Shown: one piece after another, positions 45,456-49,491 of the stretch
Layout: each line of letters opens with the position of its first letter
Position numbering within the stretch: position 1 is the stretch's first letter
IMG/VR virus record: IMGVR_UViG_3300023174_000067
Location: 1 to 64,000 of that record
DNA length: 64,000 nucleotides
DNA from: a virus
Reading direction: 5' to 3' (one strand)
Notes under the pieces: generated by a model
The model's database searches: none
What the model was told of the DNA's origin: nothing
The model's input: the letters and a program-made list of their open reading frames with translations, nothing else
Program-made: the position numbers and the translations under genes

Positions 45456-46445
45456 TTATTTTTTCTTTTCCTTTCGGGTTAATTTTAAAAATGGTTTAAG
45501 GAAATTAATCCAAGCGTTGTCATCTTTTGGCAAATACTTAAACAATCCGTCCTCCATCATCATCTTCATCAGATTTTTATATCCCCTATCTGTGGGGTCA
45601 ATTCTTTCTTTATAAACTTGTTCCACTAACTCTTTCGCATCATCTGTAACAAGTGGGTTTCCTAAATCTACAATTTTTAAATTATTAGTATAAAACTCTT
45701 CTCCAAGTATACCATTTTTTGAGTGTCCTGTCAAAATTTTACCAACAATTTTTGGAACTTTCTTTTCTTGCTGTAAAATCCTAGCATTATCTAATAATTC
45801 GGTAATACTGCAGGGTTTTGTCAACATCTGTGGGAATAACTTAACCAATGTCTTTTCACCAAGTCCATCAATACCTGATATGTTATCTGACTTATCACCA
45901 ACAAATACTTTTGTTAGTAATACATTTTGATGGGGGATGTCAACTTTGTTAAGTGATATCTTATCACCGAATTTATAGTATTCTTTCTTAATAGGAGAGT
46001 AAATTTGGACTCTTTCTGATATGAGCTGGGTTAAGTCCTTATCCGCCGAGAAGATGGTTATATTCTCATCTAATGCAATCTTACAGTATTGTCCGATTAA
46101 GTCATCGGCTTCATTATGGGGAACCTCGACTTGTCTTACAAATACTTCTTCCAAGTATTGTTTAACTCTTTGTCTTTGATTTAAGTAGGACTCATATTGT
46201 TCCTCACTCATCTCATTTCTTCTTTGTGCCTTATAGTTGGGGTATAATTCTTTTCTAACTGATGTATTGGACTCACTGTCCCAACAAACAATTACCTTGT
46301 CGTAATTTCTTTCTTCTAAATGTTTTCTGATTGTATTAATGAAATGATATATCCCTCCGATATGTTCATTCTTGTTAAATAAATCCCTAACTCCATTATA
46401 ACCTATCATATACAGGTTATTCCCATCAATTAAAAGTGTTTTCAC
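45456..46445 (-). CDS. 5'-3' exonuclease / T4 RNase H-like flap nuclease
   Basis: A 329-residue PIN/FEN-type nuclease, close to T4 RNase H (305). Metal-binding motifs appear in order: LLIDGNN (Asp7), VCWDSES (Asp56), RKELYPNYKAQR at 64-75, NEADDLIG (Glu112, Asp114, Asp115), FSADKDL (Asp135, Asp137) and FVGDKSDNISGIDGLGEKT near 181-199, the last being the H3TH DNA-binding motif. The enzyme removes RNA primers and 5' flaps from lagging-strand fragments. It has a Lys/Arg-rich tail (FLKLTRKEKKK). It lies upstream of the helicase in the same direction and is probably co-transcribed. Confidence 0.88.
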   Translation of the reverse strand: MKTLLIDGNNLYMIGYNGVRDLFNKNEHIGGIYHFINTIRKHLEERNYDKVIVCWDSESNTSVRKELYPNYKAQRRNEMSEEQYESYLNQRQRVKQYLEEVFVRQVEVPHNEADDLIGQYCKIALDENITIFSADKDLTQLISERVQIYSPIKKEYYKFGDKISLNKVDIPHQNVLLTKVFVGDKSDNISGIDGLGEKTLVKLFPQMLTKPCSITELLDNARILQQEKKVPKIVGKILTGHSKNGILGEEFYTNNLKIVDLGNPLVTDDAKELVEQVYKERIDPTDRGYKNLMKMMMEDGLFKYLPKDDNAWINFLKPFLKLTRKEKKK

Positions 46446-46516: not shown

Positions 46517-47632
46517 TTATTTTTTTTCTTTACCACTATCTTGAGTAGCATATTTAATACCCATAATTGTACCAACAATTGAAAATGCATTTGTTAACAA
46601 CACACTAAACATATTACTCCAAGTTGAGCCAATAATTTGTGTTTCCTTTCCCATCATAATTGCCGTCCAATATAACATAGTTGTTACGATTCCTACTCCT
46701 ACAATTACCGCTAATGCGCATTTAACAATGATTTTAATTAACTCACTTTGACTCTTTTTCATCACCACATCCAAATCATTCAAAGCCGCATTCTTTTCTA
46801 TTTCTATAGAATCTTTAAGTTTTTGTGAATTATCTAACTCTAATTTCAAGTCTTTTGTTAGTGTTTCTATTTTATTTTTACTGATAACGGTTTCAGTTAT
46901 ATCAGTAGCAATTTTGATTACACTTGTAACATTTCCCTTACTATCTAATATGGGATTATATGTGGCTTGTAAATAAATAACACTACCATCCACTTTTTTT
47001 CTCTCAACCACACCTTCAAAAAACTTACCACTTCTTAAGGTATCCCAAAATATTTTATACTCATCTGACTTTGAATACTCATAACTAACAAAGATACTAT
47101 GATGTCTCCCAACTATTTGATTTTTTTCGTTGGGTTTATATCCCATCGCTTGTAAAAATAAAGTATTTGCATCTAAAATGAAACCATCAACATTAAAAGT
47201 AATACTTGCCGTACTTCTGTTAATTGCTTCTAATTGTTTTTTACTATTCGCAATTGCCGTAATGTCAGTAGCAACTTTCATTATTTTAGTAATCTTACCA
47301 CTATCATCAAAAATAGGATTGTATGTCGCTTGTAAGTTGATAAGGGTACCATCTTTTTTTATTCTTTCAAATTCTCCTGAATAATACTTTCCACTTCTTA
47401 AAATGTCCCAAAACTTTTCATACTCCGATGACTTTGCGTAATCTTTACATACAAAGATACTATGGTGCTTACCAATAAGTTCATTATATTCATCAACACC
47501 ATATCCCATCGCCAACAAAAAAATGTCGTTTACACCCAAAATGATACCTCCTAGGTCAAAATAGATAATGGCATTACTTCTATTAATACCTTCAAGTCGG
47601 CTTAATAGTTCTTCTTTAGATAAGTTTTTCAT
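46517..47632 (-). CDS. PAS-PAS-coiled coil protein with two C-terminal membrane helices
   Basis: A 371-residue protein. Two PAS domains lie at about 10-130 and 132-250, each with the chemoreceptor-type motif (GKHHSIFVCKDYAKSSEY and GRHHSIFVSYEYSKSDEY, then LQATYNPIFD or LQATYNPILD, closing with ATDIT). The two are near-duplicates. Residues 250-300 are a coiled coil (KIETLTKDLKLELDNSQKLK). TM1 is about 302-330 (IIVKCALAVIVGVGIVTTML) and TM2 about 337-362 (NMFSVLLTNAFSIVGTIMGI), followed by a short charged tail. No histidine kinase, GGDEF or MCP signalling domain is present. It follows the UvsX terminator, so it probably has its own promoter. Function is unknown. A sensory membrane or holin-like protein is conceivable. 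Confidence 0.7.
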   Translation of the reverse strand: MKNLSKEELLSRLEGINRSNAIIYFDLGGIILGVNDIFLLAMGYGVDEYNELIGKHHSIFVCKDYAKSSEYEKFWDILRSGKYYSGEFERIKKDGTLINLQATYNPIFDDSGKITKIMKVATDITAIANSKKQLEAINRSTASITFNVDGFILDANTLFLQAMGYKPNEKNQIVGRHHSIFVSYEYSKSDEYKIFWDTLRSGKFFEGVVERKKVDGSVIYLQATYNPILDSKGNVTSVIKIATDITETVISKNKIETLTKDLKLELDNSQKLKDSIEIEKNAALNDLDVVMKKSQSELIKIIVKCALAVIVGVGIVTTMLYWTAIMMGKETQIIGSTWSNMFSVLLTNAFSIVGTIMGIKYATQDSGKEKK

Positions 47633-47738: not shown

Positions 47739-48734
47739 CTATTCTGTTATTTCTACTTCTTCTGATTCTTCTAATGATAATTCACCATCACCTGATAATA
47801 TTGCATTCCAATATTGTGAGTAATCTTTTTTGTATTTTTCCAAATCTTCTTTGGTATCTTGAATATATCCGTTATGAACGGCTATTACTTTTCCATCCTT
47901 GTACCCCAAACCATTTACGTGGTTTTTAAGGATTGATACTTTTGTTCTAATAGCGTAAGATACTGTTCTACCATTCTTGGTTGCAGTAATGTGATTGATA
48001 CCTGCGTTCTTTTGATTACCAAATAAGAACACCAATGATGACGCCAACCATAAAGCCTCACCACCCTTCGCCTTAATTGTAGGTTGTCCAAATGGATTGT
48101 CAGGTAACTCAACCCAAGGCTGATTAACTACAACCATTGAGTTATAATACGGATAATCTTCTTTCTTTGATTTGGTGATTCTTGAATGAACTCCCATACC
48201 AATCTTATCCGCCAATGTAGCCGCATTATGTTGTTTGCCGCCCTTACCATCGAATGTCATTTTACATGGAATAGAACCAACTGAATCCCATAAGAATAAT
48301 AAGTTATACGGAACCTCACCTTTTTCTTGAGCATCCAACACTTCATTAATAAAGTCAGTAACCTGCTCAATATAATCAAATGAATCATTAAAGATAAAAT
48401 CCCCATCCCACTCTCCGTTTTCATTCTTTGTTGCTTGTAATCCTAACTCAACTGCGTGGTCCCAACTCCATTTCTTTTCTGTAATAATGAATACAGGTAA
48501 ATGCCCTTTCTTTTGAGCATCCGCGGCTGCAAGTATCATCGCGGTTGTCTTACTACTATTACTATGTCCCAAGAACATATTAATACCTCCCATTACAGGA
48601 CCTGGTATTCCACAAGCATTATGGAACGCTTCACCACAATTGTAGTAGTTTGTTTCTTTATATTTTGTTTTGGTTGAGAACTTATCTTTTATATTCCCAA
48701 TTCCGCCAATATCTTTTTTCTTAATTCCTGCCAT
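47739..48734 (-). CDS. uvsX: UvsX/RecA-like recombinase
   Basis: A 331-residue protein starting at the ATG at 48734 (MAGIKKKDIGGIGNIKDKFS). An in-frame upstream extension to 48809 overlaps the phosphoesterase and is unlikely. The Walker loop is GHSNSSKTT at residues 56-64, lacking the usual Gly before Lys, a deviation also seen in T4 UvsX. The Walker B strand is LLFLWDS near 145-151. VVVNQPWVEL and IKAKGGEALWLASSLVFLF follow, as in the L2/DNA-binding region of RecA-fold recombinases. The acidic tail (SLEESEEVEITE) resembles the regulatory tails of this family. It promotes strand exchange in recombination-dependent replication. An intrinsic terminator follows directly. Confidence 0.88.
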   Translation of the reverse strand: MAGIKKKDIGGIGNIKDKFSTKTKYKETNYYNCGEAFHNACGIPGPVMGGINMFLGHSNSSKTTAMILAAADAQKKGHLPVFIITEKKWSWDHAVELGLQATKNENGEWDGDFIFNDSFDYIEQVTDFINEVLDAQEKGEVPYNLLFLWDSVGSIPCKMTFDGKGGKQHNAATLADKIGMGVHSRITKSKKEDYPYYNSMVVVNQPWVELPDNPFGQPTIKAKGGEALWLASSLVFLFGNQKNAGINHITATKNGRTVSYAIRTKVSILKNHVNGLGYKDGKVIAVHNGYIQDTKEDLEKYKKDYSQYWNAILSGDGELSLEESEEVEITE

Positions 48735-48747
48735 AAATTTTACTATT

Positions 48748-49491
48748 TTACATTCTAAATATAGTAAAAGTATTTGAATTATCCAATAGTATTGCGGTTC
48801 TATTTTCAACCCAATCTCCTGAATTTAGATAATGACCGTCTTCAGTCATCGTGTTTGAAGGTTGGTGTATGTGTCCACATATAACACCATAACACCCTTT
48901 TTTGTGAGCCATCTTTACGGCTTCGGATTCAAAATCATTTATAAAGTTTGTAGCAGTTTTGACCCCATTTTTAATTTCTTGTGATATTGACTTATATGGT
49001 AATTTCCTCCACGCTCTATATCTATTATACCACCTATTTAACCACAACGCCATATCGTATCCAACCGAACCAATTTTTGCCAACCATTTATATTTGGTAA
49101 TAAAAACATCTATCTTATCTCCGTGAAAAACATAATAATGTTTCTTAACAAAAAAATCATCCGTTGTATTATCATATAACTCCAAAACATAATCTTCCCT
49201 AACTTCAATCTTACCCAAATCAATATCCATAAATTCGGTTAAAAATTCATCGTGGTTTCCCCTAATCCATATAACCTTTGTTTTTTTTGATAACTTTAAA
49301 AGTTTTGTAATAACTTTTGTGTGAGTGTTCTTCCACTTAGAACCTCGTTTAAGCGCCCACCCATCAACAATGTCGCCATTTAATATTAATAAATCGGTGG
49401 GGTGAGAATCAATAAACTCAATAAACTCTTTTGCTTTTGAGTCCTTTGTTCCGAGATGCAAATCAGAAACAATTATTGCTTTATATTTCAT
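48748..49491 (-). CDS. Calcineurin-like phosphoesterase, LpxH-like
   Basis: A 247-residue protein starting at the ATG at 49491 (MKYKAIIVSDLHLGTKDSKA). The TTG three codons earlier is less likely. All metal-binding blocks are present: SDLHLG, LNGDIVDGW, WIRGNHDEF, VFHGD and CGHIHQP, then YLNSGDWVENRT. The combination GDIVDGW ... GNHD ... VFHGD ... GHIHQP ... NSGDWV is typical of the UDP-2,3-diacylglucosamine diphosphatase (LpxH)-like group of Bacteroidota, which act in lipid A synthesis. Whether this copy has that activity is unknown. Its ATG overlaps the stop of a 30-residue membrane peptide (ATGA). Together with the glycosyltransferase further upstream it may form an envelope-modifying unit. 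Confidence 0.82.
   Translation of the reverse strand: MKYKAIIVSDLHLGTKDSKAKEFIEFIDSHPTDLLILNGDIVDGWALKRGSKWKNTHTKVITKLLKLSKKTKVIWIRGNHDEFLTEFMDIDLGKIEVREDYVLELYDNTTDDFFVKKHYYVFHGDKIDVFITKYKWLAKIGSVGYDMALWLNRWYNRYRAWRKLPYKSISQEIKNGVKTATNFINDFESEAVKMAHKKGCYGVICGHIHQPSNTMTEDGHYLNSGDWVENRTAILLDNSNTFTIFRM

Follow-up and report, generated by a model that had tools for sequence, protein, structure and literature searches.

What does a phage do with a protein that carries two sensory PAS domains, ends in a pair of membrane helices and has no recognised signalling output? This question is raised by a gene in the 64,000-nucleotide stretch of viral DNA that we analysed (the window, positions 1 to 64,000 of IMG/VR record IMGVR_UViG_3300023174_000067). 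We address it through the architecture of the protein, the genes that relatives carry at the same site, and the company that its membrane tail keeps in other phages.

A tandem PAS protein with a conserved membrane tail

The gene is a single intact ORF of 371 codons (371 aa) with an ATG start, located at 46517-47632 on the minus strand, as are all the parts described here. Pfam matches PAS_3 (4e-23) and PAS_9 (8e-22) to two stretches of the protein each, and the PAS_3 match extends across the whole domain in both with 81.9 bits (cut-off 25.6). PAS1 (residues 13-125; 47258..47596) and its tandem duplicate PAS2 (residues 134-247; 46892..47233) are 55% identical, are both present in the AlphaFold model, and share an identical signature, with Asn, His and Trp matching N34, H53 and W70 of Aer. 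Behind PAS2, a long signalling helix or coiled coil (residues 246-297; 46742..46897) is continuous with the first membrane helix, TM1 (residues 298-326; 46655..46741). A short outer loop and the second membrane helix, TM2, then make up a core that is invariant among homologues (residues 331-363, TQIIGSTWSNMFSVLLTNAFSIVGTIMGIKYAT; 46544..46642), and the translated sequence ends in a short charged tail (residues 364-371; 46520..46543). The AlphaFold model, for which the alignment held 44 homologues (mean pLDDT 83, pTM 0.44), consists of the two PAS domains and an unbroken helix (246-326) that reaches from PAS2 into the membrane, where a short loop leads to another helix (332-368); hydropathy places the membrane helices at about residues 298-326 and 338-360. 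Judged from the sequence, basic residues lie on the cytoplasmic side of the membrane helices, and both termini may be cytoplasmic (predicted N-in, C-in). Pfam finds no kinase, GGDEF or MCP domain in the 371-aa protein, and none for MCP even at E<=1. An earlier note on this DNA had described these coordinates and parts, with two near-duplicate PAS domains, a coiled coil, two membrane helices, a short charged tail and no such output domain. The description proved correct throughout, and the PAS-PAS-coiled coil-two-helix architecture is well supported.

We refer to the C-terminal module, the coiled coil plus two membrane helices, as CC-2TM. Searching viral contigs with the full-length protein returned 159 relatives, the best 80 of them at 74-97% identity, and a search with the tail only returned at least 595 confirmed relatives. 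A pattern scan finds the module behind three front ends, namely two PAS domains, one PAS domain, or a small EGN-motif domain of ~40-60 residues; for one small-domain protein, AlphaFold gives a 114-residue helix with the same hairpin as the window protein. CC-2TM holds the most conserved part of the protein. Across 64 homologous coding sequences about 0.3-0.45 of synonymous comparisons differ, and residues 331-360 have zero protein variation with synonymous codons differing in about 43% of comparisons. By coding-sequence comparison the window ORF is genuine, and purifying selection on it is strong. Selection and conservation rule out chance or a misread ORF, and a constraint acting on the tail at the DNA level is ruled out by the variation of synonymous sites.

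Of 57 distinct homologues, 56 carry the 33-residue core without a change and the remaining one is truncated; in a second set all 57 members have it unaltered. Both sets were fetched without the core. Among relatives fetched through an adjacent receiver gene (described below), TM2 is nearly, not fully, invariant, with Met/Ile, Ala/Ser and Val/Ile exchanges. Searches by TM2 pattern were cross-checked against the sets fetched without TM2 and by receiver only, and we reject selection bias as the source of the invariance, since TM2 is near-invariant in these independently fetched sets as well. Such conservation is far above what is usual for holins and could point to a fixed partner instead of a pore.

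No CC-2TM tail was confirmed in a bacterial collection of one genome per species. The tail and the short form have no match among 50,697 phage records and none in Pfam over the cut-off, and their PHROG matches are weak and to families of unknown function (best phrog_1544, 1e-5). BFVD holds two phage proteins that may be members of the family, one called a 'histidine kinase' (34% identical over the PAS pair) and one uncharacterised, of 218 aa (51% identity). CC-2TM proteins form a large phage family that has apparently not been described.

One gene at the site of a three-gene operon

The small-domain form of CC-2TM belongs to a conserved phage operon, where it stands third, behind a PAS histidine kinase and a stand-alone receiver. 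The kinase is a membrane PAS histidine kinase with a HATPase_c match over the cut-off (53.5 bits), and the receiver, of about 145 aa, matches Response_reg over the cut-off (31.7 bits). The H, N and G boxes of the kinase and the Asp, Ser and Lys of the receiver are conserved. By these residues the operon in L326 and L353, two close relatives of the window phage (L353 comes from a 192-kb record), encodes a two-component system, with an H/N/G-box kinase and a receiver whose Asp is the predicted phosphate acceptor. A search with the receiver only, chosen to avoid bias, returned at least 593 confirmed relatives, of which 80 were kept; CC-2TM begins within 20 bp downstream of the receiver in 78 of 78 of these loci, and a kinase lies upstream in 72 of 72, wherever the locus had enough DNA.

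Some operon kinases (in L285, L328, L291 and L323) have a different N-terminal half with an apparent signal peptide and a long helical region, which suggests that the kinase input domains vary too. The operon is also found in L366, L377 and L382 (304, 291 and 274 kb), which are of jumbo-phage size, so the system is not confined to T4-sized genomes. In L250, an ORF that by eye resembles SmpB, a tmRNA-binding protein, is located just upstream of the operon's kinase.

The PAS-fused form is found apart from these partners. Neither a kinase nor a receiver lies beside the PAS-fused gene in any of 257 loci, and a receiver is present in none of 18 long records with the fused form (the window record included), compared with 13 of 13 with the small-domain form, once in each. 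Every long record has one CC-2TM gene, in some cases as two aligned pieces, and the whole window record contains no HATPase_c or Response_reg domain. The site itself is bounded by a UvsX-like recombinase (47739..48809) and a 5'-3' exonuclease/RNase H (45456..46445), both on the minus strand and both assigned through PHROG. In L353 and L326 the gene order is UvsX, x159, histidine kinase, receiver, CC-2TM, exonuclease, unk150 and DnaB, and the kinase, receiver and CC-2TM genes, with a small gene before them, occupy the exact site of the window gene between UvsX and the exonuclease. The surrounding proteins are closely similar to those of the window phage, at 98.8% identity for UvsX (L353), 95% for SSB, 93.7% for DnaB, 90% for unk150 and 86.6% for the exonuclease (in both relatives). 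The exclusion of the receiver, together with the operon at the same site in a close relative, identifies the window gene as a one-component replacement of the phage two-component system, and this replacement at the same locus is well supported.

A tree of 111 PAS domains bears on the origin of the fused ones. These make up a single clade (support 100/99), and they group with the PAS of operon-type phage kinases, including that of L326, apart from all sampled bacterial PAS (100/97), on few columns and a small bacterial sample drawn from a few genome and plasmid loci. Both PAS1 and PAS2 fall within the fused clade, suggesting that the pair was duplicated after fusion. The simplest history would be that the PAS of a phage kinase was joined to CC-2TM and displaced the kinase and the receiver.

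Lysis genes beside the hairpin and its possible role

We clustered the neighbours of CC-2TM at 151 non-redundant loci. A GH19 peptidoglycan hydrolase is the most frequent, at 70 loci, ahead of an 87-aa two-helix membrane protein (57) and an M15 peptidase (40); these are followed by a Phage_holin_4_1-like holin (24), a GH24 lysozyme (12) and proteins that, by eye only, we take to be spanins. Counted per flank of the fused loci, endolysins fall off from 86 of 197 at 0-1 kb to 12 of 177 at 1-2 kb and 0 of 543 at 2-8 kb, with profiles that were built from genes within 4.5 kb and favour near matches; an endolysin is present in 38 of the 43 fused loci with both flanks long. An independent check with four Pfam families (GH19, M15, amidase-2 and GH24) in 30 long records places 23 of 36 endolysin-family matches no further than 3.5 kb from CC-2TM, where 1.7 would be expected (nominal P 8e-23; the records are related and the true weight is less). 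Gene order and endolysin type differ between phages, in otherwise different neighbourhoods, which ties CC-2TM to lysis genes generally and not to one inherited block. In hundreds of viruses, the CC-2TM hairpin tends to adjoin the genes that burst the host.

Two small proteins found near CC-2TM deserve mention in their own right. In lysis cassettes the 87-aa two-helix protein (L015 7476-7739 and 56 other loci) accompanies the fused form more regularly than any other; it has no confident Pfam or PHROG match and may represent a holin not described before. A multi-helix membrane protein of 115 aa (MNYKYILLS...WPGRFVSFVTGI; L285 3320-3667, L043 3242-3589 and others), with no Pfam match, occurs downstream of both forms at 11 loci.

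In the window phage and its relative, the gene sits among recombination and replication genes, not lysis genes. Pfam finds no GH19, M15, amidase-2 or GH24 endolysin in the 134.6-kb (134,633-bp) window record, and no endolysin, holin or spanin was recognised there by six home-made profiles, the four Pfam families and a scan of membrane ORFs. The record is linear and may be incomplete; if it is not, this phage would have an unusual lysis route. A single amidase is encoded in the record of the relative, about 52 kb from CC-2TM. With this location among replication genes and no endolysin in the record, the lysis link of the window phage is by homology. Among phage records, the window UvsX matches only the Flavobacterium 'immuto' group (37% identity), which makes a Bacteroidota host likely. 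Elsewhere in the window, 5281-39119 holds a succession of very large genes, of up to 1900 aa, whose products have a tail- or fibre-like appearance.

The placement of the family's hairpin beside lysis genes in other viruses suggests that the window protein probably senses the state of the host before lysis, and a lysis role for it is probable. We favour, with moderate confidence, a one-component, sensor-gated lysis regulator in which the PAS signal passes through the coiled coil to the membrane hairpin. The tandem cytoplasmic PAS domains, probably FAD-bound, would read the redox or energy state of the host, and a conformational signal would travel along a long, presumably dimeric, coiled coil to a two-helix hairpin in the inner membrane, which would in turn promote or restrain the onset of lysis. 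In related phages the phage PAS kinase and stand-alone receiver presumably control the hairpin module; in the window phage the PAS domains would have been fused straight to the module, with the kinase and receiver gone. Of the earlier note's proposal, the phage-encoded sensor with a membrane tail and a plausible link to lysis holds up, relatives being found in lysis cassettes, but its holin-like tail fares less well: many of those cassettes contain a further small membrane protein or a Phage_holin_4_1-like holin, and the tail may instead be an antiholin-like regulator.

The favoured regulator is composed of two sub-cases. CC-2TM may itself be a sensor-gated holin with both ends cytoplasmic that would oligomerise in the inner membrane when the input switches, an idea that fits the two helices with their cytoplasmic basic residues and the adjoining endolysins. 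In 10 of 64 fused cassettes an endolysin is present and no other holin-like gene is recognised, and a survey of ORFs of at least 60 aa in the window record found a C-terminal hairpin of this kind in the window gene only. However, the full protein and the short forms match no holin family in Pfam or PHROGs, nor does the tail in PHROGs; the conservation is atypical for holins; and a second small membrane protein stands alongside CC-2TM in most cassettes. Another holin-like protein is present in 35 of 43 well-covered fused loci, indicating that CC-2TM need not make the hole. Like class II holins, CC-2TM has two membrane helices by hydropathy and model, with a topology that may be N-in, C-in, and its family has a lysis-cassette neighbourhood, but it differs from them in its large cytoplasmic sensor, a continuous helix of 80-114 residues and the near-invariant TM2, besides the missing family match. 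A gated holin is possible, but taken singly rather unlikely.

The second sub-case, an antiholin-like timer that restrains an adjacent holin until the PAS domains or the receiver signal, seems to us doubtful on its own to the same degree. The restrained holin would be the 87-aa two-helix protein or the Phage_holin_4_1-like protein. The 87-aa companion lies near CC-2TM in 51 of 64 fused loci, but is missing from the other 13 and from most short-form loci with flanks, and profile comparison finds no relation of the tail to it or to the holin_4-like protein. The long cytoplasmic lever of the AlphaFold models suits a regulator, and there is a precedent for signal-dependent timing in the lysis inhibition of T4, which acts through the antiholin RI and the holin T (PMC11413866). 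Lysis inhibition in T4 (holin T, antiholins RI and RIII) likewise uses phage membrane proteins that time lysis upon a signal, but it involves no PAS domain, kinase or receiver, and RI is periplasmic and believed to read a periplasmic signal. No relation between the T4 lysis proteins and CC-2TM was found in the family libraries.

Outside the favoured regulator, the module may instead target host physiology or superinfection (membrane energetics, phage exclusion or host signalling), its proximity to endolysins reflecting only a shared late operon. In the window phage and its relative the gene has recombination and replication genes for neighbours, not lysis genes, which is consistent with this, and a near-invariant TM2 could suit a fixed membrane partner in the host. 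Endolysin proximity nevertheless recurs across endolysin types, gene orders and different neighbourhoods, and we regard a target of this kind as unlikely.

The sensed signal, known systems and meaning

The type of PAS domain bears on what a sensor-gated lysis regulator would sense. All 232 PAS domains examined, from fused proteins and operon kinases, have Asn, His and Trp where Aer has N34, H53 and W70, and Arg takes the place of Aer N85. In Aer, His53 and Asn85 contact the flavin (PMC9668731), and the Arg at the latter position counts against our reading. Trp is reported to matter most for FAD binding, His and Asn playing a secondary part, and at least two of the three are kept in each FAD cluster, among them the FAD redox cluster types NifL, MmoS, Aer and AerC (PMC10468136); the phage domains likewise have at least two of Trp, His and Asn at the site, with the Trp in the F-alpha helix. 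The PAS domains of BdlA are also predicted to bind FAD (PMC8694187). A fold search places the window PAS among PAS structures, and the FAD redox sensor MmoS ranks first in both sequence and fold searches (structural Z 16.5). The window PAS domains probably bind FAD, and redox or energy state is our best guess for the signal.

BdlA and Aer share this PAS type, which is in tandem in BdlA, and the FAD-binding Trp and His, but their output is an MCP domain in place of the coiled coil and two-helix membrane tail. The possibility that the window protein is a captured host PAS-PAS-MCP protein that has lost its MCP output is suggested by this likeness and by the best plasmid matches, mostly PAS-MCP proteins at 37-48% identity, but is very improbable given that no part is as conserved as the tail, which PAS-less proteins share, that the tail was not found in the scanned bacterial species genomes, and that the fused PAS cluster with those of phage histidine kinases, their nearest relatives, and not with sampled bacterial PAS.

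Other known systems resemble parts of this arrangement. LytSR with LrgAB/CidAB in Gram-positive bacteria likewise has a sensor kinase and a receiver that control holin- and antiholin-like membrane proteins. LytSR is host-encoded and its receiver is a transcription factor, whereas the phage operon has a bare receiver domain and the window form lacks a receiver altogether. PAS domains are absent from both T4 RI/T and LytSR-LrgAB, and so is a bare receiver with a membrane protein as its target. VqmA of VP882 is an example of a phage-borne quorum receptor. Such receptors are likewise phage sensors that decide the time of lysis, but they are DNA-binding transcription regulators (PMC7790227), whereas the window protein has a membrane tail and no DNA-binding domain.

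Nothing direct on two-component control of lysis by phages was found in the literature searched, and phrases of the type 'phage-encoded histidine kinase' returned no paper; subscription journals and preprints were outside the scope of this search, and an earlier description is possible. Tentatively, and with somewhat less than even confidence, we suggest that phages of aquatic bacteria have a dedicated lysis signalling module that reads host redox or energy state, as a two-component system acting on a hairpin, not on DNA, and in a fused one-component PAS version. Known phage lysis clocks are intrinsic to the holin or respond to superinfection (PMC11413866). If true, a two-component or PAS-gated lysis switch in phages would tie lysis to the physiological state of the host. 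Tail and receiver searches each confirmed more than 590 relatives, which makes the family a large one, and the natural swap of a three-gene operon for one fused gene at one site offers a direct comparison of one- and two-component signalling with the same output.
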